From assembly GCA_021792795.1 (NCBI GenBank), contig JAJYUB010000001.1, positions 1 through 64,000 of the forward strand: DNA of 64,000 bases, in the 5' to 3' direction. This document shows positions 21,306 through 38,205 of the stretch, piece by piece. Each line of letters begins with the position of its first letter. Within the stretch, counting starts at the first letter, position 1. This DNA is from Acidobacteriota bacterium. GTDB taxonomy: Bacteria; Acidobacteriota; Terriglobia; Terriglobales; Acidobacteriaceae. Both the position numbers and the translations under genes were made by a program. The notes under the pieces were generated by a model. That model was not told the origin of the DNA. It saw nothing but the letters and a program-made list of their open reading frames with translations, and searched no databases.

Positions 21306-21382
21306 TGGTCGGGGCGGAGGGATTCGAACCCCCGACCCTCTGCTCCCAAAGCAGATGCGCTACCAGACTGCGCTACGCCCCG
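21306..21382 (-). tRNA. tRNA-Pro (anticodon TGG)
   Basis: On the minus strand the sequence folds into a 77-nt cloverleaf: acceptor CGGGGCG/CGCCCCG, D arm with AGCGCAGTCTGGTAGCGC, anticodon stem CTGCT/AGCAG with loop TTTGGGA (TGG), T arm with GGTTCGAATCC, discriminator A and an encoded CCA (21306-21308). Confidence 0.97.
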
Positions 21383-21441
21383 ACTCCTGTTGATTGTATC
21401 GCACGCCTTCGCAGCTTCCGCGCTCCGCGCGCTGCCAACAA

Positions 21442-21987
21442 CTAGCTCCCTGCGTGTGAACGCAACAGCACGACCAGCAACCATGCCAGCACGATCAACG
21501 GCAGGGCAAACACAGTAAGAATCGCGGCCGCCAGCGTCGTCAGAAATGCCCAGTCTTTCCAGGTGTGGACGCGCGGCTGCTCCACATGGCGGGTGAGAAG
21601 TTTGAAGTTCCGCCGGTTGGCCTTCCATGCGACATCGAACGCGTCTCCCAGCAGCGGAACAGAACCCACCAGCACCTCAATGCCAATGTTGACCGACATT
21701 CGTATCAACGTGACGTAGGGGACGCCGCGAAACCACGCCGCCACCAGCAGGATGCAGGACGCCAGTCCTCCCAGCACATCGCCAATGCCGGGCACCAGGC
21801 CAACGATAGCATCCAGACCAAAGCGAATCGAAGTTCCGGGAATGCGCAGCCAGTCGTCCAGAACATGCGAAAGCATGTCGAGATTTTTATCGTTGAAGAC
21901 ACGGCTGCTGCGACCGCCGCGCGGCGGCAAAATCCGCGGAGGATGGCGCGGATCGATGCGTGACGGCAATGTGCGACTCCCATCCAC
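21442..21987 (-). CDS. DUF4112 membrane protein
   Basis: Small membrane protein of unknown function. The family core is clear: LDDWLRIPGTSIRFGLDAIVGLVPGIGDVLGG (about residues 43-75), a transmembrane helix, then IEVLVGSVPLLGDAFDVAWKANRRN (about 103-127), the second P-x-x-G-D motif that defines DUF4112. A C-terminal hydrophobic helix (about 148-172) follows. GTG at 21987 gives a 37-residue proline/arginine-rich lead; ATG at 21876 directly before the domain is an alternative start. It lies between tRNA-Pro (same strand, downstream) and tRNA-His (opposite strand). Confidence 0.85.
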   Translation of the reverse strand: MDGSRTLPSRIDPRHPPRILPPRGGRSSRVFNDKNLDMLSHVLDDWLRIPGTSIRFGLDAIVGLVPGIGDVLGGLASCILLVAAWFRGVPYVTLIRMSVNIGIEVLVGSVPLLGDAFDVAWKANRRNFKLLTRHVEQPRVHTWKDWAFLTTLAAAILTVFALPLIVLAWLLVVLLRSHAGS

Positions 21988-22033
21988 AGCATCGGGAACA
22001 GGCGCTGCGAATGCTACAATTCTATTTGTTCAT

Positions 22034-22109
22034 GGCGGCTATAGTTCAGTGGCAGAACGCCGGTCTGTGGCACCGGATGTCGTGGGTTCGACCCCCACTA
22101 GCCGCCCCA
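22034..22109 (+). tRNA. tRNA-His (anticodon GTG)
   Basis: A 76-nt cloverleaf with encoded G-1 (22034) opposite discriminator C, acceptor GCGGCTA/TAGCCGC, anticodon stem CCGGT/ACCGG with loop CTGTGGC (GTG), T loop GTTCGAC and encoded CCA. A TACAAT hexamer at 22014-22019 is a plausible -10 box. Confidence 0.97.
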
Positions 22110-22174
22110 AAGGAACGCCAAAGGATTTCAATTCTTCCCGAGATTCCATTCCTCCCCGCAGCCGCCGTTTCCTT

Positions 22175-23260
22175 ATGATGCGTTCCGCGAACGACGCTCA
22201 ATTTTCCAGTCTTCCATCGGACCGAACAATCGAGCGCGCAAACGCTCCGGCATGGCTGACAGAATTTCAACCCCGCCGCGGGGTGCGCAACGGCGATTTG
22301 CAAACTCTGTTCGCGAATTTTTTGCCGCGCCGAATACAACTTCCCGCGCCAGAAAGTACCCTCGTTGAAGTCGATGCACCTACGCAGAGCCGCGTGCTCT
22401 GCCACTGCAACTGGCAATCGGAGCCGATTAGCGGCGCCTGCATGACACTGCTGCTGCTGCATGGATTGGAAGGCTCCTCGCAGTCGCAATACATGCTGGG
22501 AAACGCCCACAAAGCGTGGCGCTCCGGATGGAACGTGGTCCGCATGAACATGCGCAACTGCGGCGGCACGGAAATGCTGGCGCCGACTCTGTACCATTCC
22601 GGACTCTCCGGGGATGTACGTGCGGTAGCGGAGTTCTTCGCGGGACGTTTCAACCTGGACCAAATGGCGTGGGTCGGCTACTCGATGGGCGGCAACATGG
22701 TGTTGAAGGCCGCAGGCGAATACGGCGCGGCACCGCCGAAATGGCTGCGCGCGGTCATAGGAGTCTCGCCTGTCGTGGACATGCAGCCCTCCGCCGATGC
22801 ACTGCACGATCCTCGCAATCGACTCTACGAATGGAATTTTCTGCGTAATATGCTCGCGCGGTATCGTCGCAAAGCGGAGTTGTTTCCGGATCGCTTTTCC
22901 CTCGCGAATTGCAAGCGGATCCGTAGTATCCGCACCTACGACGAATACATCGTCGCGCCCAACTGCGGCTTTCTCGGGGCGGACGACTACTACGACCGCG
23001 CAGCCGCGGCACGCGTCCTCGAACGGATCGCCTTGCCTGCGCTGATTCTCCACGCCCTCGACGATCCATTCATTCGCATCTTGCCGGAGACGCGCGCAAA
23101 GATTTCCGCCAACCGGAATATCGCGTTCGTCGAGACAAAGCACGGAGGTCACTGCGGGTTTCTCGCGCGCGCCACCGAACACGACGACGGTTATTGGGCC
23201 GAATCCACGTTGCACCGCTTTGTCCTCTCCGCCGTCGCATCCGCAACGGAGAGGGACTAG
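22175..23260 (+). CDS. YheT-like alpha/beta hydrolase (UPF0017 family)
   Basis: Cytoplasmic serine hydrolase, probably an esterase. It shows the family pattern: LHGLEGSSQSQY (oxyanion-hole side), MNMRNCGGTE, the nucleophile elbow GYSMGGN, the late LHALDDPF with the catalytic Asp, and KHGGHCGF with the catalytic His. Length 361 is slightly longer than E. coli YheT (about 340). The open frame extends upstream through tRNA-His, which excludes the longer product; tandem ATG codons at 22175 and 22178 are the first sensible starts. The next gene begins directly after its stop, so the two form an operon. Physiological substrate is unknown. Confidence 0.87.
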   Translation: MMRSANDAQFSSLPSDRTIERANAPAWLTEFQPRRGVRNGDLQTLFANFLPRRIQLPAPESTLVEVDAPTQSRVLCHCNWQSEPISGACMTLLLLHGLEGSSQSQYMLGNAHKAWRSGWNVVRMNMRNCGGTEMLAPTLYHSGLSGDVRAVAEFFAGRFNLDQMAWVGYSMGGNMVLKAAGEYGAAPPKWLRAVIGVSPVVDMQPSADALHDPRNRLYEWNFLRNMLARYRRKAELFPDRFSLANCKRIRSIRTYDEYIVAPNCGFLGADDYYDRAAAARVLERIALPALILHALDDPFIRILPETRAKISANRNIAFVETKHGGHCGFLARATEHDDGYWAESTLHRFVLSAVASATERD

Positions 23261-23860
23261 ATGCAATCCGATTGGACGGTCGCCTGTGCCGCCGATGATC
23301 CGGAGGTTGTTGTCCCGTGGGCCGGGAAAGATCCATCGCTGCGATATTTCGATCTGCGACGAACACCGGAGGCCATCCAGCAGATTCCCGAAGCCGCCGA
23401 GTATCGCTGCGTCGCTGCCGCGCTGCGTCGCTGGAACCAGCCAGATACCTTACTCTTCACCGCGAAGTGCGACGTTTGGAGCTATCCCGCGAAGCTCTTC
23501 GATGCCGAGGACCTGCCTGGCTTTGCCTACGCCCATGGCAGCTACATCGATCTGCTGCCGGTCAAAGCGGAAATATCTTCCAGCTTCGCGGCCTGCGAAC
23601 GGCAACTGCGCGCGTGGACAGAGATCGCCCGGTCCATCGAACTACCGGCTTGCCGGTGCGAGTTCACCCTGCGTCCGGCGCGTGTGTTTCCTGCTGCCTC
23701 TGCACCCGCGAACGCAACACCAAACACTCCCTGCCAGAACGGATTTGCAACCACGCTGTATGTCTGGGGATATGGAGCGTCGCCGGAGTCGGCGGCATCG
23801 GCCTGGGCCGCCGCGTTGCAAGCGCTGATCGAGCCCGTCCTGCTGTCGGGCCGCAAATAA
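23261..23860 (+). CDS. Conserved-looking hypothetical protein
   Basis: I do not recognise the family. The 199-residue product is soluble, without signal or membrane segment, and has the compact composition of a real protein: aromatic clusters (FAYAHGSYIDLLP, TTLYVWGYG), five or six cysteines including CRCEF, and an alanine-rich C-terminal helix (SPESAASAWAAALQAL). Its ATG follows the TAG of the YheT-like hydrolase without a gap, and it lies 147 nt before tRNA-Arg, so it is presumably co-expressed with the hydrolase. Possible roles, such as an accessory to the esterase, are only suggested by context. Confidence 0.7.
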   Translation: MQSDWTVACAADDPEVVVPWAGKDPSLRYFDLRRTPEAIQQIPEAAEYRCVAAALRRWNQPDTLLFTAKCDVWSYPAKLFDAEDLPGFAYAHGSYIDLLPVKAEISSSFAACERQLRAWTEIARSIELPACRCEFTLRPARVFPAASAPANATPNTPCQNGFATTLYVWGYGASPESAASAWAAALQALIEPVLLSGRK

Positions 23861-24007
23861 TTCTGCGTGAGATTTCTCCGGGCGAAGCCGCTTTCTTTGC
23901 CGATACAGACGTGGTCAAAGAACGAAGCGCAGGCGATTTGGCATATCTGGAACTCCGCGCGGAACGCTACAATAAAGCGACGTCATCGTTGCGACGAACG
24001 CGCGTTC

Positions 24008-24084
24008 GGGCGAGTAGCTCAATCGGATAGAGCACCGGCCTTCTAAGCCGGGGGTTGTGGGTTCAAATCCCGCCTCGCCCACCA
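24008..24084 (+). tRNA. tRNA-Arg (anticodon TCT)
   Basis: A 77-nt cloverleaf: acceptor GGGCGAG/CTCGCCC, D arm AGCTCAATCGGATAGAGC, anticodon stem CCGGC/GCCGG with loop CTTCTAA (TCT), T loop GTTCAAATC, discriminator A and encoded CCA. TACAAT at about 23970 could be its -10 box. Confidence 0.97.
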
Positions 24085-24621: not shown

Positions 24622-25704
24622 CTACTCCGCTGGCGTGAGGCGTGAATGCGCCTCGGCGGTATCGAGCGCGAGACGAAGGGCCCCCATGAGTTGTGCGTCC
24701 GGTCCAAGCTCGCTGGGGATCAATTGGGGTCGTCCCCGGAGGGCCCATTGTTGCAGCATGCCACGGGTGGCAGCGCAAAGGGCCGGATGCAGGCCGACGC
24801 CGCCGCCCAGCACAAACAACGGGCAGTTCAACACCAGCGACATGTTATAGATGGCGTGGGACAACATGCGCGCCGACTGCTGCAGAATGGTCTGCGCCAG
24901 CGGATCGCCGGCTAGCGCAGCGTCGAATATCTCGGACGCTACGATCTCCCTCGGAAGCGTGGTGTTGTCCGCCGTCCAGAGCTTTTGCCATTCTGCCCGA
25001 ATACCTTCGCCGCCAATCATGCTTTCCAGAGCTCCCGGTTCGTCGCGCTTCCGGGGAGCGTTTGGCGTGCCGGGCACCAGCATATACCCGATTTCTCCGG
25101 CGGCCCAACCCGCCCCGTGGAATAATGAGTGGTTCATCACGATGCCTGCGCCGATGCCCGTGCCAATCGCGACAAATATAAAGTCGCGCGCGCCTTTGGT
25201 GGCCCCCGCCCAGCTTTCGCCCACAGCCGCCAGGTTCACATCGTTGTCCACCGCCGACGGAATGTTCAGCGCCGCTTCGAGCATTGCGGCCAGGGGAACG
25301 TCGCGCCATCCGAGCAGATAGGAGGTGGCGATCACGCGGCCTTCCTCGACGTCGGTGACGCCGGGTACGCCAACGGCGATGGCTTTGAGGGAGCTGCGCG
25401 GAACGGAGGTCTGCTGCAGCAGGCGTTCGACGCCGTCGCAGATGAGGCCGACAACTGCGACGGCGCCGCGCACACCGGTGGTGGACGACGACCATTTAGC
25501 GACGATGGCGCCGGACCGATCGGCAAGCGCAAGGCGCAGGTTGGTTCCGCCAATATCGACTCCGACGACATAACCGGGGTGAGGGGACAGCCCATTGTCT
25601 GTTTGCGTCGATGCAGTGTTGCCGCGCTGTTGCCGGGTGCTTTCCAAGGTTTCACGTTTCGGTGAATTGGGCATGGTTCGGCTCTCTCCTGGTATTTCAT
25701 TCAT
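24622..25704 (-). CDS. ROK-family sugar kinase
   Basis: Probable ATP-dependent hexose or amino-sugar kinase, cytosolic. Motifs: phosphate loop VDIGGTNLRLAL (about 49-60), the DND catalytic region with Asp155 (AVDNDVNLAA), a second glycine-rich loop IGTGIGAGIV (about 180-189) and the C-terminal FVLGGGVG adenosine motif. The ROK zinc site is missing: the usual E-I-G-H is E204-I-G-Y207 and no C-x-C-G-x-x-G-C follows. The start is the ATG overlapping the porter stop (ATGA, 25701-25704); Met11 is an alternative. Last gene of a SIS-porter-ROK operon, so it would phosphorylate the imported sugar. A regulatory role is less likely because it lacks the helix-turn-helix of its neighbour. Confidence 0.85.
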   Translation of the reverse strand: MNEIPGESRTMPNSPKRETLESTRQQRGNTASTQTDNGLSPHPGYVVGVDIGGTNLRLALADRSGAIVAKWSSSTTGVRGAVAVVGLICDGVERLLQQTSVPRSSLKAIAVGVPGVTDVEEGRVIATSYLLGWRDVPLAAMLEAALNIPSAVDNDVNLAAVGESWAGATKGARDFIFVAIGTGIGAGIVMNHSLFHGAGWAAGEIGYMLVPGTPNAPRKRDEPGALESMIGGEGIRAEWQKLWTADNTTLPREIVASEIFDAALAGDPLAQTILQQSARMLSHAIYNMSLVLNCPLFVLGGGVGLHPALCAATRGMLQQWALRGRPQLIPSELGPDAQLMGALRLALDTAEAHSRLTPAE

Positions 25705-27107
25705 TGGGCAATCGCATTTGCCTCAGTACTAATGCTTTCCAGCTCGCGCCCTTTTGTTTCCGGGACAACGAAGCGGACAAAAATTATCGTGAGGACACAA
25801 AACCCCGCGTAAATGAGGAATGTGGTTGAACTTCCCGCCGCTTTGACGAGGGACAGGAACGTAAGCGAGACAACAAAGTTGGCTGCGCCAGAGGCCAGGG
25901 ACGCCACGGCGACACCGCGGCCGCGCACTTGCAGCGGGAAGACCTCCGATACAAGGATCCACGCGATGGGCCCCATGCTGAAGGCGAAGCAGGTGATGTA
26001 GACCATAAGGCAGACGGTCGCGACAATGCCCGGAGCGGCCCCAAAGGAAGATTGATTGCGGAAGGAATACGCGAGCATCAGCAGGGACGCCGTCATGCCG
26101 CCGACACCGGCGTAGAGCAACGGTTTGCGTCCTACGCGGTCGACCAGCACCAACGCGATGACGGTTGCAAGCACGTTGGTGACGGCGACCAGTAACGTGG
26201 CGAAGATTGCGTTTTTGTTGGAGGCGATGCCGGCAAGGGAAAAGATCCGCGGTCCGTAATAGAGGATGGCGTTGATGCCCGTGACCTGTTGCAGAATGAG
26301 GAAGCCGGCGGCGATAAACAGAGACATGCGCACGGCTGGACCCCAGAGCGCTCTCCAACGGCGCTCCATTTCAATTTGCAGCGCAGCGTGAATGTCGGCG
26401 AGCAGAAGGCGCGCGCCGGCTGCATCGGTGTAGGTCAGGAGCACGGATTCAGCCTCAGCGGTCCGGTCCTGCGCAAACAGCCAGCGCGGACTTTCCGGCA
26501 GCGGGAGGAGCAGCAGGACGAAGAGGGCGGCGGGTATCGCGCCCATGCCAAACATGAGGCGCCAGGCGTGTTGGCTGGCCAGCCAGTAACCCACCAGGTC
26601 TGCCAGCGCGATCCCGATGGTAAGAGCGAACTGATAGAGCCCGATTAACATGCCGCGCGATTGCGGCGGCGCCAGCTCCGAGACATAGACCGGCGCGGTG
26701 ACGGAGGTGAAACCGACGGCCACGCCCAGCAGCAAGCGGGCGACGATGAGTGTAGCCACGTTTGGCGACGCGGGGGCCAGCAGCGAACCTGCCAGGAAGA
26801 TGGCGCCACCCCAGAGCAGCGTGGCGCGGCGGCCAATGCGATCTGTGATGCCGCCGCCGGCGAGCGCGCCGGACATGACGCCGATCAACACCACGCTGAC
26901 GACGACTTCTTCCATGCGCGTGGAAAGCATGAAAGTCTTGCGCACGAAGACCAGCGCGGCGGCGATGACCCCCATGTCATAGCCGTAGAGGATGCCGCCG
27001 AGTCCCGCGATGACGGAGACTCGCCAGATAAAGCTGCGGCGAACGTGTGTCTGCGGCGCGAGCGCGGGGGTGGGCACGGTTTCCTCTCGGTTCAAAAAGA
27101 CGGACAT
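25701..27107 (-). CDS. MFS sugar porter (XylE/GalP-like sugar:H+ symporter)
   Basis: A 468-residue, 12-helix inner-membrane carrier for a monosaccharide. Family signatures: GYDMGVI in helix 1, DRIGRRATLL in loop 2-3 (about 85), the cytosolic PESPRWLFAQ before the central loop (about 218), QQVTGINAILYYGP in helix 7 (about 285), DRVGRKPLL in loop 8-9, and the C-terminal PETKGRELE. The order and spacing match sugar porters closely. ATG 27107 lies 1 nt after the SIS gene's TAG and its own stop overlaps the kinase start, so the three genes form a tightly coupled operon. The sugar is not identifiable, though XylE/GalP relatives carry xylose, galactose, glucose or arabinose. Confidence 0.92.
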   Translation of the reverse strand: MSVFLNREETVPTPALAPQTHVRRSFIWRVSVIAGLGGILYGYDMGVIAAALVFVRKTFMLSTRMEEVVVSVVLIGVMSGALAGGGITDRIGRRATLLWGGAIFLAGSLLAPASPNVATLIVARLLLGVAVGFTSVTAPVYVSELAPPQSRGMLIGLYQFALTIGIALADLVGYWLASQHAWRLMFGMGAIPAALFVLLLLPLPESPRWLFAQDRTAEAESVLLTYTDAAGARLLLADIHAALQIEMERRWRALWGPAVRMSLFIAAGFLILQQVTGINAILYYGPRIFSLAGIASNKNAIFATLLVAVTNVLATVIALVLVDRVGRKPLLYAGVGGMTASLLMLAYSFRNQSSFGAAPGIVATVCLMVYITCFAFSMGPIAWILVSEVFPLQVRGRGVAVASLASGAANFVVSLTFLSLVKAAGSSTTFLIYAGFCVLTIIFVRFVVPETKGRELESISTEANAIAQ

Positions 27108-27108
27108 A

Positions 27109-28212
27109 CTATTGCGCCATTACGTCGTATTGAAACCTGGGCGGCAGCCGGCAGCCTGTTCGTTCCACCATGCCAAGCGTGAGCGCCTGGGCCACCAGCA
27201 GGCACGTAATCGCCTCCCACGGTTCCGGGACGGCATCAATGCGGACAGGAAAAAGTTTGTCGGTGGCCGGACGATCATCGGCAGAGATGAGCACGACTTT
27301 CCCGCCACGGCGATTGCATTCCTGGGCAAGTTTGATTCCGAGTTCGGCCACACGGCCAAGAGCGAAAATGATTGCCACATGGGAGCGGTCGACATCGAGG
27401 TTCGGGCCGTGTTTGAAGCCTGCGCCTGTATGCGCCGCGGCGCGGTGGCCGGTCATTTCGCGGATACAAAGCGCGCTCATCATGGCTGCGCCATAGGCTG
27501 CGCCTCGGCCGATGATTTCCGTGTTGCGGGCGCCACTGCAGAAGGCTTCGAGGGCGCTGCGTTGCGCGAAGATGGGAGCGAGATGGCTGGCAAAGATTTC
27601 TGCCGCTCGCTCGGCGTCGTCTTCCCACGGACGTTCTAGAGTTTCAGACGCCAGGATGATGGCGGCGGCGGCGGAATTGGTGTAGGTTTTTGTCGCGTTG
27701 CCGTACTCTGGGCCGGCCAGGATGGGGAGTTTGTTTTTTGCCAAGTTCCAGCAAGTGCTGGCGGGGTTATTGCAGATCAGCCCGAGGGCGCGGTCTGCTC
27801 CGGCCTTCATCAGTTCAACCAGTTCGGCGCTTTCACCTGACGTGGTGAGTAGCACGGAAAGGGCCGCATCGTTCCAAACCGGCTGGGCATAGTGCAGCCA
27901 TTCGCCGGCGTCGGCTGAAAACGACGGCCTGCCGTGCATCTGCAGCAGGACAGATCCGCCAAAGGAGGCGCAATAGGATGCGCCCATGCCGAGAAACAAG
28001 ACCGGGCCGGGGTCCCTGGAAAGCTGGCGAAATTTCTTGAGTGCAACGCGCATCTCCCGATCGCTACGATAGGCATGAATCAAATCGAGAAGCCGCTGCG
28101 GCTGCTCGCGACATTCGATCTCGAAGACCTGCGTGCCGCTGGCATGCAGCAGATGCGGCGGCGGTTCGACCCCGCTAATCCAGCGAGGCGCTCTTACGTT
28201 CGCGTCTCCCAC
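27109..28212 (-). CDS. Double-SIS-domain sugar-phosphate isomerase/deaminase (GlmS/AgaS-like)
   Basis: Predicted aldose-ketose isomerase or amino-sugar-phosphate deaminase built of two SIS domains. The first (residues ~60-190) has FLGMGASYCASFGG and LTTSGESAELVELM, the phosphosugar-binding loops; the second (~215-350) has EIIGRGAAYGAAMMSALCIREMTG and a GFKHGPN motif typical of GlmS/AgaS isomerase domains. The glutaminase domain of full GlmS is absent. GTG at 28212 is preferred because GAGGAAAG lies about 5 nt upstream; the longer frame uses TTG at 28242. First gene of the operon with the porter and ROK kinase, which suggests conversion of an imported, phosphorylated amino sugar to a glycolytic intermediate. 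The substrate is inferred. Confidence 0.85.
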   Translation of the reverse strand: MGDANVRAPRWISGVEPPPHLLHASGTQVFEIECREQPQRLLDLIHAYRSDREMRVALKKFRQLSRDPGPVLFLGMGASYCASFGGSVLLQMHGRPSFSADAGEWLHYAQPVWNDAALSVLLTTSGESAELVELMKAGADRALGLICNNPASTCWNLAKNKLPILAGPEYGNATKTYTNSAAAAIILASETLERPWEDDAERAAEIFASHLAPIFAQRSALEAFCSGARNTEIIGRGAAYGAAMMSALCIREMTGHRAAAHTGAGFKHGPNLDVDRSHVAIIFALGRVAELGIKLAQECNRRGGKVVLISADDRPATDKLFPVRIDAVPEPWEAITCLLVAQALTLGMVERTGCRLPPRFQYDVMAQ

Positions 28213-28242
28213 GATACTTTCCTCGATATTGAGAATCCGCAA

Positions 28243-28581
28243 ACAGCCACGATCTCGCGCTGCAGGCGACGTTGGGCCCGTCGACCAGTCTGCGCAACCG
28301 AATGGGCCCGAAACACGCCCAGATTCGCGTTACAAAAAGCAACAAAACGGTTTTAAAAGCAAGAGTAAAACAAACCGTGAGCACTAACGCGCTAAAGCGC
28401 CAATTGGTAGACCAGGAACTTCTTAATGTTTATTTAGTATCTACGTTGAGCGGCTGGAATGCAAGAGGTCCTTTTTGTAAGGAAGGTTTGCAAAGTTGCC
28501 GTCCCGGGTACATTCGGTGATGACGACCTGCCAGAAAATGGCATATAGTAACCGTCAGGTTCTTGGCTTTTCTGGAACGAA
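28243..28581. promoter_or_regulatory. Divergent promoter region between the SIS operon and the ROK repressor
   Basis: This 339-nt gene-free stretch is AT-richer than its flanks around 28330-28440. It contains the palindrome GCGCTAAAGCGC (28389-28400), a candidate operator. Promoters for both transcription units should lie here; boxes are not assigned. Confidence 0.55.
28389..28400. promoter_or_regulatory. Palindrome GCGCT-AA-AGCGC, candidate operator
   Basis: Perfect 5-bp arms around AA, central in the region between the divergent operon and the ROK-type repressor gene. ROK or LacI-type dimers bind such symmetric sites; assignment to this repressor is inference. Confidence 0.4.
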
Positions 28582-29796
28582 ATGAAGAGAAAAAATATCC
28601 CAATGGGCCGGCCGTCGGTTCTGCGGCATACGAATGCCCACAACATTCTGAAGCTTTTGCGCGATTTCGGTTCGTGTTCACGGGCGGACTTGGTCCGTGC
28701 TTCCGGTCTCAGCGCTCCCACAGTCACCAACGTCGTAAAAGACCTGCTGCTGAAAGACCTCATAGAACCGCTCGGCGAAGGAGAGTCGAGTGGGGGACGC
28801 CCGCCGGACATAATCCGCTTCAAAGCGGAACGGGGCTGTCTGCTCGCGGTGGAAATTTCCGCAGGGAGTGTTTCTTTCCTCCTGACCGACCTGAATGGAA
28901 TCGAGATGGAGACGCGCAGAATCTCGTTGGCGAAGCGCAATACCACGCCCGATGGGATCTGCGGCGAAATCGGGAAAGAGTTGAAAAAGCTGCTGCGGAA
29001 AAGGAAGAAAACTCTGGACCATCTGCTGGCCATGGTTGTCGGAGTGCCTGGGATCGCGAATGTGGAAGAGGGAAGCGTCCTATCCATTAGCAGGCTGGAA
29101 GGCTGGCGGTCTGTGCCGCTTCGCGCCATGCTTAGCAGGATCGTCAACTGCACAGTCATCGTGGAAAACGATATGAACCTGGCCGCGCAGGGGGAGCAAT
29201 TTTGCGGCGCCGCGCAGTCCGTGAAGGATTTCATCTTGATCGAGATCGGGACAAATGTCGGCGCCGGAATCTTTTTAGACGGAAAAATTCATCACGGCTC
29301 GCAATGGTGTGCGGGAGAAATCGGCTATCTTCGCGTGCCTTCCACCTCGCGCAGACAGCCGACCATTCACGAGTTCGGCGAGTTGGAAAATGTGCTGACG
29401 AGTTCTGGAATACTGAAGAGTTGGCGCGAAGAAAGCGAGAAGCGCGCCAAGGGCGCAAAGCATGCCGACCGGGAAGTGGATGCGGTGGCAATCCTGGACA
29501 TGGCGCAGGCTGGAGACGCGCGCGCGAAAAAAATTGTCCGCAAGCGAGCCGAAATTGTTGCCGATATCATTATCGATTTGTCTCTTATTCTGAACCCGAG
29601 CTTGGTTCTTTTGGGCGGAGAAGTCGGCAGCCATCCAGTGCTGATCGAGTTCGTTCGGCAGCAGTTGGTGGGAAGCGAATTTGCAGTAACACGAATCGGC
29701 TCCGGCACGCCTGGCAACCGCGCCTTGCTTTGGGGCGGGATCTCGCTGGCTCTGGAGGCGATTCCGTCGGTCCTGTTACCGCAACCGCCCATGTAA
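28582..29796 (+). CDS. ROK-family transcriptional repressor (NagC/Mlc/XylR-like)
   Basis: Likely sugar-responsive repressor. Residues ~15-80 form a winged helix: NAHNILKLLRDFGSCSRADLVRASGLSAPTVTNVVKDLL then a G-G-R-P wing. The ROK domain follows, with VPGIANVEEG, ENDMNLAAQGEQ, EIGTNVGAGI, CAGEIGY (Tyr249 where His normally binds zinc), and LLGGEVG near the end. As in the kinase of the divergent operon, the C-x-C-G-x-x-G-C zinc loop is absent. ATG 28582 starts MKRKNIPMGRPSVLR; Met8 is an alternative. Length 404 suits the family. Position suggests control of the SIS-porter-kinase operon and itself. Confidence 0.88.
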   Translation: MKRKNIPMGRPSVLRHTNAHNILKLLRDFGSCSRADLVRASGLSAPTVTNVVKDLLLKDLIEPLGEGESSGGRPPDIIRFKAERGCLLAVEISAGSVSFLLTDLNGIEMETRRISLAKRNTTPDGICGEIGKELKKLLRKRKKTLDHLLAMVVGVPGIANVEEGSVLSISRLEGWRSVPLRAMLSRIVNCTVIVENDMNLAAQGEQFCGAAQSVKDFILIEIGTNVGAGIFLDGKIHHGSQWCAGEIGYLRVPSTSRRQPTIHEFGELENVLTSSGILKSWREESEKRAKGAKHADREVDAVAILDMAQAGDARAKKIVRKRAEIVADIIIDLSLILNPSLVLLGGEVGSHPVLIEFVRQQLVGSEFAVTRIGSGTPGNRALLWGGISLALEAIPSVLLPQPPM

Positions 29797-30033: not shown

Positions 30034-30837
30034 GTGACGACACGACGGAATTTTGTGAAGATGGCCGGCGCTTCAGGGCTAATCGGCATCGCTGCTCCCC
30101 TTCACGCCCAGCATCGGCTCAATATAGGCATCGGTACATTCAGTTATCGCAATCTCTCGATCGACGATATGATTCTGCAGTTGAATGCGCTTCGTATTCG
30201 CGAAATTGAAATGTCTCGCGGTGAGTTCATGCTGTTGAGTCATCCGCACGACGATTTGTTTCGCAGCGCGCGGGCGAAACTGGATCGCGCAGGTATTCGT
30301 TGTGTTTCATATTATGCCGCTACCATCAAGGACGATGGCGACGTCGAGGACGCGGTGCGTTTCGCGAAGCTGCTGGGAAGCGGCAACATCACCGGCGATG
30401 GGACCGAAAGCGTTTTGAAGCGGATTGATCGGCGGCTGACACAAGAAGGGCTGACCTTCGGGTTGCACAACCATTTCTTCCCGAATGCGACTTTCGCATA
30501 CCAGGGCCCCGACGAAGTCCTGCAGGCGATCCACGGCCTTTCAAGGACGATGGGAGCGACCGCCGATACCGGCCAATTTGCATCGTGCGGATACGACCCA
30601 GTGGATGCCGTTCGCAAGCTGGCGCCGCGGCTTCGCATGGTCCATCTGAAAGATGTGAAAGCGAAGGGTAGCGATCTGAACGTACTGCTGGGGGCGGGGA
30701 TTGCGAGGATTCCCGCAGTCATGCAGGAACTGCGCCGGCAAAACTTTGCCGGCCTGGTGGCCGTCGAGTATGAAAAAGAAGGCGACGTGGACCGGGACAT
30801 GGCGAAGGAAATTGCATTTGCGAGAAAGCTAGCGTAA
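30034..30837 (+). CDS. Tat-exported sugar phosphate isomerase/epimerase-like TIM barrel
   Basis: Member of the xylose-isomerase-like (AP endonuclease 2) fold. The start is GTG 30034, giving a Tat-type signal TTRRNFVKMAGASGLIGIAAPLHA. Barrel motifs include IGIGTFSYRNLS, the metal-ligand-like IREIEMSRGEF, LTFGLHNHFF, GATADTGQFASCGYDP, RMVHLKDVKA and VAVEYEKEG, so the usual Glu/His/Asp/Glu metal ligands look present. Length 267 is normal. Exported relatives are frequent in acidobacteria and planctomycetes and are thought to modify sugars in the periplasm; the reaction is not known. It starts a plus-strand run leading into the thioredoxin-fold and GH18 genes. Confidence 0.82.
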   Translation: MTTRRNFVKMAGASGLIGIAAPLHAQHRLNIGIGTFSYRNLSIDDMILQLNALRIREIEMSRGEFMLLSHPHDDLFRSARAKLDRAGIRCVSYYAATIKDDGDVEDAVRFAKLLGSGNITGDGTESVLKRIDRRLTQEGLTFGLHNHFFPNATFAYQGPDEVLQAIHGLSRTMGATADTGQFASCGYDPVDAVRKLAPRLRMVHLKDVKAKGSDLNVLLGAGIARIPAVMQELRRQNFAGLVAVEYEKEGDVDRDMAKEIAFARKLA

Positions 30838-32009: not shown

Positions 32010-32074
32010 TTCCGGCCATCGAACCAGCATGAAGTATAGAAGGTCAACCCAATCTCCATTCTGGAGAGCGTGTG

Positions 32075-33211
32075 ATGTTTATGGATCGTTCTACGTTTGG
32101 CCAACCGCTATATCAGCGAAGGAATTTGCTTTCCATTGCAACGATTGCGGCGCTTGCGATGGGAACCAGCGGTTGCAGAGTGCGAAAGAATGCTGCGGCT
32201 GTCCCGCCCACTCCAGCCGCCGCCGCGCCCACGTTGCAGCCGGTGACGAAACCGACGTGCCCGCCTTCGGCAACCCAGGCTGCGGCCCTGAATCCAACGC
32301 CGTTGCTGGTCGAGTATTTTTTGCGGACAAGGGGAAACACTATGCGGACTATGCGAAGCAAATCGATTTTACGAAGATGACGCACTTGAATCTGGCGTTT
32401 GGAGTGCCGCCGAAATGCGATGGCATATGTACCGCGAGCAGCGACATGGTGTTTTCAATTCAGGGCCAGAGCGATGCCGACATTGCGGCGATTGTGGCAG
32501 CCGCGCATGCTGCCGGTGTAAAGGCGGTCCTCTCCATTGGAGGCGGAGGCGGCGATCAAAGAATTATTCAGTTTTACAACGCAGAATTGTCGGCGGAGTT
32601 GGTGAAATCCCTGGACAAGTTCGTTGCGGCCCATGGGTTCGACGGGGTTGATCTAGACATAGAGGACCCAAGCAACATGGGCGCTCCGTTCGGCGCATTT
32701 GTGAATGCGCTGGCAGCGACGTTTCACCCAGAAGGGAAAATTGTCACCGCAGCGGTGGCGAAGTATTTGCAGAGTTCCATGCCGGATGCCGCGCTGCACC
32801 AATTCGACTTTATCAATGTGATGATTTACTCGTCGTATGAATCGGCGGTGAGTGCGTTACGGTTTTATTCAATCGACGAGAAAGTGCCTAGAGACAAGAT
32901 TGTGCTGGGGGCGCCGTTTTTCGTGTCTACTCCGGACGACTCCAAGGAAGAGAGTTATCAAACAATTCTGGCGGCCTATCCCAATGCGTGGAAGGTCGAT
33001 TTGGCAGGGGGGTGGTCCGCTCGACGATGGTCAGGCGTTCAGCTATATAGGTGAGGCGACGATGGCGCGCGAGATGCTGCTGGGAGAGCAATACGGCGGG
33101 GTCATGATCTGGTCGATCCTGGGAGATGCGCCTGCGCCGCATTCGTTGTTGAAAGTGATCCAAAACAACCTGACGACGAACCGTGGTCCGGGCGCGCCGG
33201 CAAATCCATAA
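32075..33211 (+). pseudogene. GH18 chitinase-like lipoprotein gene, broken by two homopolymer frame shifts
   Basis: The reading frame must be joined from three pieces. Frame 1 from ATG 32075 (GGAG 9 nt upstream) encodes a signal with a lipobox-like TSGC and a proline/alanine-rich linker up to about 32316. At a run of six T (32317-32322), losing one T gives VEYFADKGKHYADYAKQ and the GH18 barrel, including LSIGGGGG and DGVDLDIED, the family D-x-x-D-x-D-x-E with the acid Glu at codon 32662-32664. At a run of six G (33007-33012), losing one G restores GGGPLDDGQAFSYIGEATM through the end at 33211. Each break is one extra base in a homopolymer, so sequencing or assembly error, true decay, or phase variation are all possible. 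Confidence 0.85.
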
Positions 33212-33261: not shown

Positions 33262-34017
33262 TTATTTCGAACGTCCGCCGAGCCACAGCAGGGCATTTTC
33301 AAAGAAGACATTCTGAATCGGGCTGGTGAGGATTTTGTTGCCGTGGCCCATGTTGGTATAGATCATTTTGTACTTCGTGTTGGTCCACGTTACGGGGATG
33401 TCGCCGCCGGCAAGCGTGTCTTTAAATCCGATCGGATAGTTGGAAGGCGCGAGCGTCATCAGCACCTTGATATCAGGATTGCTGCGTGGATCGGGTTTCC
33501 AGCTATACCATTCATTGGCGGGCGACAGATAGCTTTGCGGCAGCCCCTTCATGATGGGGTTGGTCGGATCGTCGATGGTGAGGGTGGCAGGCAACGGAGG
33601 CCAGCTGTTGCCGTAGAACATGGCCCCCAGAAAGTCGGCAAACCAGGGCCAGACTTGACGGTTGTCCATCCAGCCGGCGATATGAAAGCCAAGCCATGCG
33701 CCTCCGTGCTCCATATAGTTCTGGAAGGCGATACGTTGTGCTGGCGTTGAGGGCGCGTCGTCCAGCCAGAGAACCACCTGATACTGTTTCAGGGTGCTCG
33801 GATTCAGGTCGTTCCAGTTCGATGTCGCTTTGAAGTCGAAACGATCGCGCCCGGCCATCGCCTGGAAAAATGGGATCGCCTGCATGGCGAAATCCACGTG
33901 GTCCTGTTCAACGTTGGCGGAGTAGAACGCGAGAACATGAAAGGGCCGGTCCTGGCCGGAGGCTGCGGCAAGACCAATCCATCCGGCTAGGCAGAGCAAA
34001 CAAAAACGGCGAATCAT
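33262..34017 (-). CDS. Exported ThuA-like (class-I amidotransferase fold) protein
   Basis: Signal peptide (MIRRFCLLCLAGWIGLAAASG) then a ThuA domain: FHVLAFYSANVEQDH, DLNPSTLKQYQVVLWLDDAP, HGGAWLGFHIAGW, NPIMKGLPQSY and PVTWTNTKYKMIYTNMGHG followed by FFENALLWLGG, in the order usual for this trehalose-utilisation-associated family. The nucleophile Cys of amidotransferases is not apparent (Ala/Gly at the elbow), as in most ThuA members. Length 251 is normal. Function of the family is poorly known; sugar-related roles are suggested by context. It is divergent from the YVTN propeller gene and convergent with the GH18 locus. Confidence 0.8.
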   Translation of the reverse strand: MIRRFCLLCLAGWIGLAAASGQDRPFHVLAFYSANVEQDHVDFAMQAIPFFQAMAGRDRFDFKATSNWNDLNPSTLKQYQVVLWLDDAPSTPAQRIAFQNYMEHGGAWLGFHIAGWMDNRQVWPWFADFLGAMFYGNSWPPLPATLTIDDPTNPIMKGLPQSYLSPANEWYSWKPDPRSNPDIKVLMTLAPSNYPIGFKDTLAGGDIPVTWTNTKYKMIYTNMGHGNKILTSPIQNVFFENALLWLGGRSK

Positions 34018-35277: not shown

Positions 35278-38205
35278 TCATTCTTTGCCGGCGATGCCCG
35301 TCAGTTCCTGATGCCGATTGAGCTTGCCGTCAGGCAGCAGGACTGCGACCCACGGCGATGCTGGATCGACGACGCGCGCGCGCCATCTGATTTCTCGCTT
35401 GCCGTGCCGGCCGAAGTCGACCAGCTTGGTGTTGGGCCCAAGCAGTTCCAAATTGTCGACCCTTGCGGTAAAGGCGTGTGTCCCCGCGCCTTCGGCAGAG
35501 AGATGCAATTGGACTTCATGCGAAGGGAGTTCCTTCGAACTGGCTGTGAAATCCACGGCCTTACTTTGGCGGAGATCGAGTTGATACGATCCCGCCGAGA
35601 GTGCCGTGAGGGAAGTGCGCACTGTGCCTTGTTCGACCGTGTATTGCCCTTGTGGAATGGCTGCGCGAAAGGTCCCGTCGGCCCGGTCGACGGTTGCGAT
35701 GGTGGTCTTACCCGTCTTTTGTTCGATGAACCGTACCGGCTCGCTCGCAGGCGTGTCAAGCACTCCTCGCACGACTGCGGGACCGCTCAAATCCCGCATG
35801 AGCCAGATCCATTCGCCGACAGGCTGCGTCCAGACTTCTTTGTAGGTCCAGCAGATCTGGTTCGGCCAGTAAGGCGCATCGGCGGTGCCCTTTGTCTGAA
35901 TGCCGACGGGAATTGCGCCGACCATTTGTCCGGAGCGGACGCTGTAGAGAGGGGTCCAATCGTAGCCTTCGCCGTACATGATACTGGCGGAGAAAGGATT
36001 TCTTCCGACGATCCACTGCGCCTGCTGCTGCGCTAGATTTTCGGCATCGATGTTGTCGCGCAACTGGGCCGCGGTGGAAAGAGCCTTGGCCTCGGAAAGC
36101 AGAACACTGGAGTTGCCACGGAAATCAAACCAGACTGGGAAGCGGCGCAGATAGTAGCCGCCGCCAAGAGGCACGCCGCGGCGGACCTCATCCAGATAGG
36201 TCGTTCGGTCGGCGGTCCGCAGGGGGGTCCACGTCTTCGAGTGCGGAAGTAAATCGGCTTCGCCCTCGCGGTAAACCGCGGCGGGCAGCATGTTGTACGG
36301 TGCATCGACGGACGCAACCGCTTGCTGATAATACTTCGAGTGCAACACAATGGCGGAATACCACTTCATCCAGTTTGGATTCTGCGGAAGGGCTTCGCAG
36401 AGCTGGGCGAGTGCGACGATGGGCTGTTCTTCTTCCCCCATGTGGAAGCGATGAAAAAGAGCTTTGCGGTCTGGGCCGGTGTAGAAGTAGCCGGTCACTG
36501 GAATGCTCCACGGCTGCAATGTTCTTTCCTGCGAGGCGAGGATCCGATTGCCGAGCGTAACGGCTTCGTCGGCGTATTGCCGGTCGCCAGTTGCTCGGAA
36601 CAAATCGATCGATGCGATCGCGCCGAAGGAAATTCTCTCCAGGTCATCTTTCTGGCCGTAGATTTCCGGCAGTGGTGGCGCTGCTTTGAGACCGGTGACG
36701 GCGAACTGCCAATCCTCTTTCGCGGTGGCAAGACTGCGATTGGCCAGCTCTGGATCGCTGTCTTTCAAAACGCGTGCAGCGAGTGCCTCGACTGCGGCAA
36801 CTCTGAAATTCCATTCAGGATCATTCACCGCCGGCCCGAAGCGGTCGTCGGCGTCGCCCATGATTCCGTCGGTCCAGTAACTGATCAACTGACCGGTGGT
36901 GCGGTAGCCGTTGCCAAAGCGCGTCTTCAGCACCCAGTTCAGGCCCCACTTGGCTTCGAGGACCAAGCGGTTGTAGAGAACAGGGTCTTCACCTTGCTGC
37001 TTGAGGCGCTCTGCCAGCTCAAAGAGGCCATACGACATTGCCGGCGTGTTGCCGGTGGCGCTCAAGTCGCCGGCATCGTGATAGCCGCCGTTGACGAGGA
37101 TGCGTTTGTCGCCGTGGAAGCTGTAGTCGTCCTGATGGCAGATTCCATGAATGCCAGGAACGACTGTGCCGCAGCGCTCGCTATACATGAAGTTGACGGC
37201 CTTGACGATGCTGTCGCGCCAAGCGTCGTCGCCGATTCGAAAGGAGCGGGTGCTCGTGTCGCCCGAGCGAAGAAAATAATTTCCAGGTTGCTGGACCGTG
37301 GAAAAATCGAGCACCTGATACTCGCCCAGGCCGGTCTTCTTCCGCTCGACGGGCTTTGTCAGGACGACCTTAGCGGTATCGGCGTTGATGACCGAGAAAT
37401 CTTGCGCTGTCAGGCTGCTGGCGATGGCTGTCTTGGATGCGCCGGATTCATAGCCGGCGTGGCTGAACGCAATCTTGCCGTCGGCAACATCCCATCCCTC
37501 GACGTGGTCCGGATTGACGGTCTGCAGCTCCAACCGATCGATGTAGAGGACAGTTTTGTCACCAGGTTCGGGAAACATCTTCGGCAGACTGTAGGCGACG
37601 TCGAGGGCGGTGACACGGTCCCGAGAGAGCGGCGTAATCTCCCACACAACATGGTTCCATTGGCGGTCCTTGAGCGGGATGGATTCGTCGCGCCCTTCAT
37701 TCGTATTGTCCGGCAAGATGTGGGCGCCCTCGTTGTGCAGGACCAGTGAAACGGTGATCGCGGGCGCTCCGTCAATATCTGGATACACCCAGATGGAGAT
37801 GCGGTTGTAGCGACTCCAATCCTCCGAAGGGAAGCTGCGGGTGGCGACAAGGTCCTCCCAATCCCCGCTGCCGTCGACGCGCGCGATGTTGTCTGTGGAG
37901 TCGATGCGGATGGAGTGTTGGCCGTCCTTGACTTCCGACGTGGAGAGGGCCATCGTGCCGTCTCCCTTGAATTTCCAGTGCGACAGATCTTCCATCCCGT
38001 CCAGCAGGCGAGAATCAAGGACCTTCTTATGCAACCAGCGGTATTCCGCGCCATCTTGGACGACTGGCTGCATCGGCTGTTCTGGAGATCCCAGTTGCGC
38101 TTGCAGAGGGAGGACTGCGGGAAGGCAAAAAATTGCGATGCAGAGCAGAAGACGGGAGATGCGATGCAAGGAAGGTGGGCACTGCAGCAGTTCCATTCCG
38201 GCCAT
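35278..38205 (-). CDS. Secreted GH9 family endoglucanase/glucanase with N-terminal carbohydrate-binding domain
   Basis: Inverting beta-glucanase acting on cellulose or mixed-linkage glucans. A signal peptide (ISRLLLCIAIFCLPAVLPLQAQ) is followed by a beta-sandwich carbohydrate-binding-like region (~60-240), an Ig-like cellulase N-domain (~245-340, with KVVLTKPV...YFLRSG) and an (alpha/alpha)6 barrel (~340-800). The catalytic GH9 motif GGYHDAGDL is visible with Asp377/Asp380 as base residues. A possible acid Glu lies in TYKEVW downstream. The final ~150 residues look like beta-rich appended domains. Length 975 is large but usual for multi-domain GH9 proteins. It lies next to the TonB receptor region, so it may feed products to that uptake system. 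Confidence 0.87.
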   Translation of the reverse strand: MAGMELLQCPPSLHRISRLLLCIAIFCLPAVLPLQAQLGSPEQPMQPVVQDGAEYRWLHKKVLDSRLLDGMEDLSHWKFKGDGTMALSTSEVKDGQHSIRIDSTDNIARVDGSGDWEDLVATRSFPSEDWSRYNRISIWVYPDIDGAPAITVSLVLHNEGAHILPDNTNEGRDESIPLKDRQWNHVVWEITPLSRDRVTALDVAYSLPKMFPEPGDKTVLYIDRLELQTVNPDHVEGWDVADGKIAFSHAGYESGASKTAIASSLTAQDFSVINADTAKVVLTKPVERKKTGLGEYQVLDFSTVQQPGNYFLRSGDTSTRSFRIGDDAWRDSIVKAVNFMYSERCGTVVPGIHGICHQDDYSFHGDKRILVNGGYHDAGDLSATGNTPAMSYGLFELAERLKQQGEDPVLYNRLVLEAKWGLNWVLKTRFGNGYRTTGQLISYWTDGIMGDADDRFGPAVNDPEWNFRVAAVEALAARVLKDSDPELANRSLATAKEDWQFAVTGLKAAPPLPEIYGQKDDLERISFGAIASIDLFRATGDRQYADEAVTLGNRILASQERTLQPWSIPVTGYFYTGPDRKALFHRFHMGEEEQPIVALAQLCEALPQNPNWMKWYSAIVLHSKYYQQAVASVDAPYNMLPAAVYREGEADLLPHSKTWTPLRTADRTTYLDEVRRGVPLGGGYYLRRFPVWFDFRGNSSVLLSEAKALSTAAQLRDNIDAENLAQQQAQWIVGRNPFSASIMYGEGYDWTPLYSVRSGQMVGAIPVGIQTKGTADAPYWPNQICWTYKEVWTQPVGEWIWLMRDLSGPAVVRGVLDTPASEPVRFIEQKTGKTTIATVDRADGTFRAAIPQGQYTVEQGTVRTSLTALSAGSYQLDLRQSKAVDFTASSKELPSHEVQLHLSAEGAGTHAFTARVDNLELLGPNTKLVDFGRHGKREIRWRARVVDPASPWVAVLLPDGKLNRHQELTGIAGKE

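Follow-up and report, generated by a model that had tools for sequence, protein, structure and literature searches.

Kinship of two zinc-less ROK proteins in an acidobacterial sugar locus, and a winged helix in a related operon kinase

The closest known counterparts of the ROK proteins considered here are the Escherichia coli repressors NagC and Mlc and a small set of solved ROK kinases, and the view printed in the accessible part of PMC12696579 is that ROK repressors are kinases that gained a DNA-binding domain. We analysed a 64,000-nt stretch of an Acidobacteriota bacterium (Terriglobia; Acidobacteriaceae; GCA_021792795.1, contig JAJYUB010000001.1, positions 1-64,000), hereafter the window, which carries a tightly packed operon for a SIS protein, a sugar porter and a ROK kinase, divergent from the gene of a winged-helix ROK protein, the putative repressor. 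The main interest of this locus is the ancestry of its kinase, rather than the missing zinc ligands of its two ROK proteins. We consider it modestly probable that the locus is a locally regulated catabolic unit whose two ROK proteins descend from one zinc-less ancestor that carried a winged helix together with an intact kinase motif.

The locus and its closest known relatives

Like NagC and Mlc, the window repressor combines a winged helix with a ROK domain that has lost its first ATP motif, and the winged helices of both E. coli proteins match the profile built from the clade described below. Unlike the window repressor, however, they have a zinc site (EIGH, CxCGxxGC) and lie on a separate branch. 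The window kinase resembles the Listeria beta-glucoside kinase 4htl, called LmNanK in PMC5458393, in which, according to the accessible part of that source, Tyr replaces the zinc His and the loop has no cysteines; the identity in the fold match is nevertheless 25%, and 4htl has Asn172 where the window kinase apparently has Glu227. The same part of PMC5458393 describes Fusobacterium NanK (5nck), which also lacks the zinc cysteines but keeps the ExGH His and is an N-acetylmannosamine kinase. The best solved relative of the window kinase is the ROK glucokinase 2qm1 (1.1e-39; Foldseek rank 1), which carries the zinc motif, unlike the kinase, and has no winged helix in its aligned chain. The SIS protein shares its fold with the GlmS isomerase domain and the SIS-type glucosamine-6-phosphate deaminases (TM 0.73-0.78 to GlmS/GFAT) and has equivalents of GlmS E488 and H504, but the identity is about 20%, K603 and E481 are not retained and the profile cut-offs are missed by far. 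The features of the locus are as follows.

24622-25704, minus strand: ROK kinase, 360 aa (open reading frame and Pfam ROK), without winged helix or zinc cysteines; D-x-G-G-T (50-54) intact, N154-D155, E204-I-G-Y207
25701-27107, minus strand: sugar porter of the major facilitator superfamily, 468 aa (Sugar_tr, TIGR00879); 4-nt overlap with the kinase gene (ATGA, 25701-25704)
27109-28212, minus strand: SIS protein (Pfam SIS), GlmS isomerase-domain fold, E252 and H268 matching GlmS E488 and H504; 1-nt gap to the porter gene
28415-28444: candidate operator, an imperfect conserved palindrome (core 28418-28440) in the SIS-repressor intergenic region
28582-29796, plus strand: putative winged-helix ROK repressor, 404 aa (ROK and HTH_24), without zinc cysteines; first ATP motif lost (E-I-S-A-G), N-D retained, E246-I-G-Y249
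30034-30837, plus strand: TIM-barrel protein (PF01261), 3' of the repressor gene, with an ortholog in 8 of 22 kinase-bearing loci

This layout, three packed genes and a divergent winged-helix ROK gene, is the one that had been read from the letters alone in an earlier note (the original prediction), and we recovered it at the same coordinates and strands. Only the SIS start needs a remark: the frame opens at 28242 (TTG, the first possible start), and 28212, where the predicted span 27109-28212 starts, is an internal GTG near which most aligned orthologs begin. The Pfam assignments are clear, with PF00480 (ROK) scores of 174.6 and 132.5 bits for the two ROK proteins against a gathering cut-off of 22.9 (E-values 4.3e-51 for the kinase and 2.9e-38 for the repressor), HTH_24 at residues 20-62 of the repressor (E 1.2e-5), Sugar_tr at 1.6e-110 and SIS at 1.5e-18. 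The porter also passes the sugar porter subfamily TIGR00879 (370.5 bits, cut-off 237.8). The nucleotide motif DxGxT reads DIGGT in the kinase and EISAG in the repressor; as Mlc and NagC of E. coli deviate from it too, the change is no bar to identifying a ROK repressor. The catalytic Asp after Asn is present in both proteins (NDV in the kinase, NDM in the repressor).

As predicted, both ROK proteins read E-I-G-Y (204-207 in the kinase, 246-249 in the repressor) in place of ExGH, and many ortholog repressors have EIAY; neither protein has CxCGxxGC. The zinc loop had also been described as absent. The cysteines are indeed missing, with no C-x-C-x(2-4)-C in either protein, but the loop itself is nearly full length in the alignment to 2qm1, so that the cysteines were replaced and the loop was not deleted. 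How unusual is this loss? Among 29 ROK proteins found with the Pfam profile in five genomes (three Bacilli, two alphaproteobacterial), CxCGxxGC is present in 15 and missing in 14, and is therefore not decisive for family membership; the fourth ExGH position is His in 18 of them and Tyr in 4. In the genome of the window itself, one of the three other scorable ROK proteins carries CxCGxxGC. As zinc-less ROK proteins are thus frequent and ExGY has a precedent in 4htl, the loss of the motif is by itself unremarkable. In the second of our trees (below), 69 of the 70 in-group rows, some of which were found with a pattern containing the motif, have Tyr at the fourth place of ExGx and one has Ser, and none has CxCGxxGC. 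Winged-helix ROK proteins of Fictibacillus and Tepidibacillus with W-A-A-G-E-I-G-Y (L122, L127, L129, L131, L132) do not group with the acidobacterial clade, and the motif therefore probably has more than one origin. We consequently ruled out E-I-G-Y as a marker of kinship, since these Bacilli proteins and an E-F-G-Y kinase (L191) fall outside the clade.

Kinship of the two ROK proteins and the winged helix of an operon kinase

The first alignment kept 162 of 190 rows (<95% identity) after rows below 90 bits and L134 had been dropped, and the reduced one kept 134 rows (80% identity; the truncated row L164 removed). In the first IQ-TREE tree (75 rows, 62 in-group and 13 chosen outgroup rows) the zinc-less group was supported at 99/97, its kinases (27 rows) at 100/95 and its winged-helix ROK proteins (35 rows) at 87/90. 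The second tree used 82 of 100 rows (the 18 left out included some zinc ROK proteins as well as the long-branched L014 and L189) and had as near outgroup L232, a winged-helix ROK protein from another acidobacterial family. In this tree support is 100/99 for the group without L232, 99/95 for the kinases, 93/90 for the winged-helix ROK proteins and 100/100 for the repressor branch, which lies beside an Edaphobacter-type group of intact winged-helix ROK proteins (99/98); the root branch to the zinc glucokinases, Mlc, NagC and the Bacilli E-I-G-Y proteins has 92/62. Both window proteins thus lie in one zinc-less clade, apart from the zinc glucokinases and Mlc/NagC, and neither is nearer to a zinc family. 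To that extent the shared ancestral, putatively zinc-independent variant proposed by the original prediction stands, but the lack of zinc ligands on which it was built is not unusual, given the 14 of 29 ROK proteins without them and the Tyr of 4htl.

The "close co-evolved pair" of the same prediction did not survive. Kinase and repressor distances correlate at 0.877 over 19 loci, and the other five gene pairs, each taken over 15 or 19 loci, give 0.861-0.912; all six pairs behave alike, which rules out a special kinase-repressor co-evolution and leaves plain co-inheritance. In the best tree, moreover, the kinases form the sister group of all remaining members, L232 excepted, and kinase and repressor are, judging from these trees, probably not each other's closest relatives.

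The motifs divide along the same lines. D-x-G-x-[ST] is intact in 27/27 kinases and in 26/26 winged-helix ROK proteins outside the repressor branch, and in 0/17 members of the repressor branch, where Asn-Asp is kept in the rows of the first alignment with the sole exception of NS in L124. Such a complementary pattern agrees with an ancestor that had both parts and with the loss of a different one in each line. A large acidobacterial group of winged-helix ROK proteins with a complete kinase motif, mostly with E-I-G-Y, was also noted (L086-L107, L116, L128, L216-L226, L255-L270).

One kinase has kept, or acquired, the other part. The operon kinase of the Candidatus Sulfotelmatobacter metagenome-assembled genome (L081; 7788-9005), which adjoins a repressor, a porter and a SIS gene, has 95 residues before its ROK domain. 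Winged helices were initially assigned from the number of residues preceding the ROK domain and then verified with a hidden Markov model (HMM) trained on 53 winged helices from the clade. With this HMM the L081 stretch scores 67.2 bits (E 7e-21), the other 26 kinase rows at most 2.1 bits, Mlc 35.5 and NagC 37.8, and all 43 non-kinase members of the tree at least 86.8, including 11 outside the training set, among them L232 (86.8). In the same test set L090, a winged-helix ROK protein with a late start call, has 83.1 bits. Pfam HTH_24 gives L081 17.3 bits, under its cut-off of 21.9. The L081 winged helix is closest to those of L105 (51%) and L103 (47.5%), and that of its own repressor is not in the first 25, a difference that speaks against a recent local fusion but leaves some room for one. 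Among the other kinases the HMM found no remnant of a winged helix above noise, a suggestive stretch in L125 being at noise level.

The topologies submitted to approximately unbiased (AU) tests were selected with the tree already known. A clade of all winged-helix members including L232, with the kinases excluded, is rejected (p=0.0006), as is one that joins the L081 kinase, but no other kinase, to the winged-helix members (p=0.004); a clade of the kinases and the repressor branch is not rejected (p=0.10). The idea that the kinases nest directly among particular intact winged-helix ROK proteins, a FastTree hint, was set aside as unsupported in the careful trees, and is not rejected when tested (p=0.32, five ROK proteins).

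Taken together, the zinc-less clade, the L081 helix, the AU results and the motif split are best read as an ancestor in which a winged helix was combined with a complete kinase motif, followed by complementary loss: the winged helix would have been dropped in the kinase line and the ATP motif in that of the repressor. On this best reading the direction of loss runs opposite to the kinase-to-repressor view in the accessible part of PMC12696579, and in the open-access literature that we searched the winged-helix-to-kinase direction was not found.

A recurrent unit, its candidate operator and its substrate

We collected 80 loci by scanning contigs with five aligned ROK sequences, two of kinases and three of winged-helix proteins, and with the patterns W[ACS]AGEIGY and PG[IV][TA][DN]V[EQ][EA]G; since motif patterns served to choose them, motif counts in these loci are biased. 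A kinase ortholog is held by 22 of the 80, and among these the called reading frames include a porter in 22/22, a repressor in 18/22 and a SIS gene in 17/22. Further SIS genes were found in L085 (by tblastn) and, beside the porter and beyond the locus end, in L125 (genome G604); L068 ends at a contig end. Four loci have a repressor ortholog by the score threshold and no kinase (L113, L121, L123, L130), L121 being a 3.8-kb contig. The carriers belong to Granulicella, Silvibacterium, Terracidiphilus, Edaphobacter, Sulfotelmatobacter, Bryobacterales and other Acidobacteria. The repressor is divergent, as in the window, in 10 of the 18 loci with kinase and repressor (L069-L074, L076, L077, L084, L085); it follows the kinase tail to tail in L082, L114 and L117, and kinase and porter face each other in L081, L118, L119 and L125.

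A whole-sequence search free of motif patterns gave a kinase ortholog at E<=1e-98 in at least 27 of 300 genomes of the family, at least 20 of which have, among the matches listed, a repressor-type ROK gene no more than about 11 kb away. Three of the other seven kinases are on 5-7 kb contigs (G007, G508, G666), in G523 the repressor-type ROK gene is 560 kb off and in G565 on another contig, and in G458 and G586 there is none among the matches listed. Across the phylum (396 genomes) SIS orthologs at E<=1e-30 occur in 3, and in 61 near relatives no SIS match exceeds 77.5 bits except that of the window's own genome. The unit is patchily distributed. It recurs together within Terriglobia all the same, so that the original prediction, which would have suffered from a lack of co-conservation, gains here; recurrence in other genomes points to more than chance.

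The palindrome between the SIS and repressor genes is a candidate operator on the grounds of its position and conservation. A matrix of 30 columns made from seven ortholog sites, the window excluded, has the consensus core ATACTTCCTAATGATTATTTAGTAT, a dyad. The window site (28415-28444) scores 35.4 and the next best in the 64 kb 13.8; in five mononucleotide shuffles the rate of sites >=11 is 2.2 per 64 kb. Loci that did not serve for training score 43.9 (L072), 39.4 (L085), 36.1 (L076) and 28.3 (L118 and L119). A site of 37.2 precedes the amine oxidase gene of L078, a locus without repressor, one of 31.5 a ThuA-like gene in L113, and L238 has 30.5 at the repressor and 30.1 elsewhere; sites are weak (16-20) in L075, L080, L081 and L125. 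With a consensus pattern, six of nine relatives have a single match and the other three have none, as do the controls, and four of the six matches (G483, G543, G556, G591) precede the repressor. A large regulon was not seen, the window site being the only match of the pattern used in its own genome.

How would such a unit work? The porter would import the sugar, the ROK kinase would phosphorylate it with ATP, and the SIS enzyme would isomerise or deaminate the sugar phosphate to yield fructose 6-phosphate. The repressor would occupy the palindrome between the divergent genes until the sugar or the sugar phosphate, bound in its ROK pocket, releases it. The predicted substrate is an aldose that the porter takes up, with glucosamine or a similar amino sugar as the most likely candidate, a leading guess based on the relatives of the SIS protein, the GH18 and GH20 neighbours (glycoside hydrolase, GH, families) and a nagA-type gene. 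The latter lies elsewhere in the genome, and the same profile also matches all 14 control genomes, over its cut-off in 7.

The AlphaFold2 model of the SIS protein (predicted local distance difference test, pLDDT, 86.3) has GlmS/GFAT isomerase domains as its top 41 solved matches and glucosamine-6-phosphate deaminases at ranks 45 and 48. By comparison of letters, E252 and H268, at the positions of GlmS E488 and H504, are invariant in 17 aligned proteins; GlmS E481, K485 and K603 are not kept, and Tyr362, at the place of K603, is invariant in the same 17. The NCBIfam cut-offs are missed for GlmS (94.5 vs 418.05), NagB-II (40.2 vs 430) and AgaS (24.6 vs 529.2), and, as AgaS and FrlB of E. coli also keep the Glu and the His, the pair cannot separate isomerase, deaminase and deglycase. 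In the kinase model (pLDDT 84.2; residues 1-40 under 50 and of low confidence) the Foldseek ranking places the human ManNAc kinase 3rd after 2qm1, the winged-helix ROK protein Lmo0178 5th and 4htl 23rd. For the two window ROK proteins the equivalog cut-offs are missed for NagC (128.4 vs 650), Mlc (131.5 vs 530) and BglK (102.8 vs 550), and so is that of the ROK glucokinase TIGR00744 (160.5 vs 260.35).

The neighbouring genes named by Pfam are GH20 (L073), GH116 (L118), ThuA (window, L071, L077, L118), GH9 (window, L082, L113, L130) and GH18 (window, L130). Downstream of the window repressor lie the ThuA protein (33262-34017) and the GH9 protein with a CelD_N domain (35278-38205), whose best solved relatives are endoglucanases, as would also suit glucans. 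The GH18-like gene (32029-33211) is apparently spread over three frames, with a signal-peptide-like start, a catalytic stretch and a C-terminus, and would be a pseudogene or an assembly error. Just 3' of the kinase end, beside this patchily distributed operon, are three tRNA genes (Pro, His, Arg; 21306-24084). A copper amine oxidase gene (Pfam) with a signal-peptide-like start is found between repressor and SIS genes in L071 (3471-5435) and upstream of the SIS gene in L080 (3077-5176), and the gene upstream of SIS in L076, L078 and L079 has a similar sequence start.

Rival readings and the direction of change

Could the two ROK proteins have had another history? Under ordinary ROK evolution the kinase branch would never have been winged, L081 would be a late fusion and the shared E-I-G-Y a simple common loss of zinc. 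We find this unlikely: it agrees with the published view that kinases acquired a DNA-binding domain (PMC12696579, accessible part), with the lack of a winged helix in 26 of 27 kinase rows and with the weakness of the root branch, but an arrangement with the kinases outside the winged-helix members is rejected by the (post hoc) AU test (p=0.0006), the outgroup L232 is itself winged, and the L081 helix is not close to that of its own repressor. That kinase and repressor arose by direct duplication within the operon seems quite improbable to us. The two genes are adjacent in L081 and their common clade is not rejected by the AU test, but the best tree joins the intact winged-helix ROK proteins to the repressor branch (93/90), beside the Edaphobacter-type intact group. 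A bolder version of a shared ancestor, which we put forward tentatively and with more doubt than belief, is a dual repressor-kinase that split its jobs between one descendant that retained DNA binding and sugar sensing but not ATP binding and another that retained the kinase but not the winged helix, both now serving one operon; the intact winged-helix ROK proteins and the L081 kinase would then be living dual-function proteins, catalysis possibly setting their own DNA binding. Concerning the substrate, it is possible, though on the whole we doubt it, that the operon serves a non-amino hexose or a beta-glucoside, with a kinase like the Listeria beta-glucoside kinase and an aldose-ketose isomerase or FrlB-type deglycase as the SIS enzyme. 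The Tyr and missing cysteines of 4htl, the 102.8 bits with the BglK profile, the GH9 resemblance to endoglucanases, the GH116 gene of L118, the Glu-His pair that aligns equally with FrlB and AgaS, and the missing K603 would all suit such an operon. However, the BglK score is far below its cut-off of 550, the kinase retains E227 where 4htl seems to have Asn172, an inferred correspondence, and the GH18 and GH20 genes by some loci point to chitin sugars.

The descent that we favour, from one zinc-less ancestor with winged helix and intact kinase motif into a locally regulated catabolic unit, has its own difficulties. The AU tests were post hoc, made once the tree was known; the polarity depends on one near outgroup, L232, and on the root branch of 92/62, and without L232 the kinases and winged-helix ROK proteins are plain sisters (87/90). 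The winged helix of L081 may be a later fusion, since loss and regain require two changes and retention three losses. As for the regulation, only weak or misplaced sites occur in L082, L114 and L117, and no matrix site >=11 in L079, L083, L121, L130 and L234; L121, whose repressor is the nearest one (95% identity), counts by this absence against a fixed operator. The pattern used in the window's own genome had been fitted to the window site itself, and the one match that it gives (<=3 mismatches) is equalled by one match of the reversed control; two of the six matches in relatives (G435, G485) lie some kilobases from the repressor. Finally, the SIS protein lacks GlmS K603 and stays below the curated score of every SIS family that it matched, and the GH genes differ between loci and suit beta-glucans equally.

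In conclusion, our analysis goes beyond the original prediction in proposing a winged-helix ancestry of the kinase, a complementary loss of motifs and a candidate operator. In this one clade, tree topology and the winged helix that a single operon kinase has kept point opposite to the printed direction. If this is true, ROK domains can move both ways between regulator and enzyme, and the clade, with its dual-motif proteins, a kinase in transition and each of the two specialised end states, would lend itself to direct study of the change between kinase and transcription factor.

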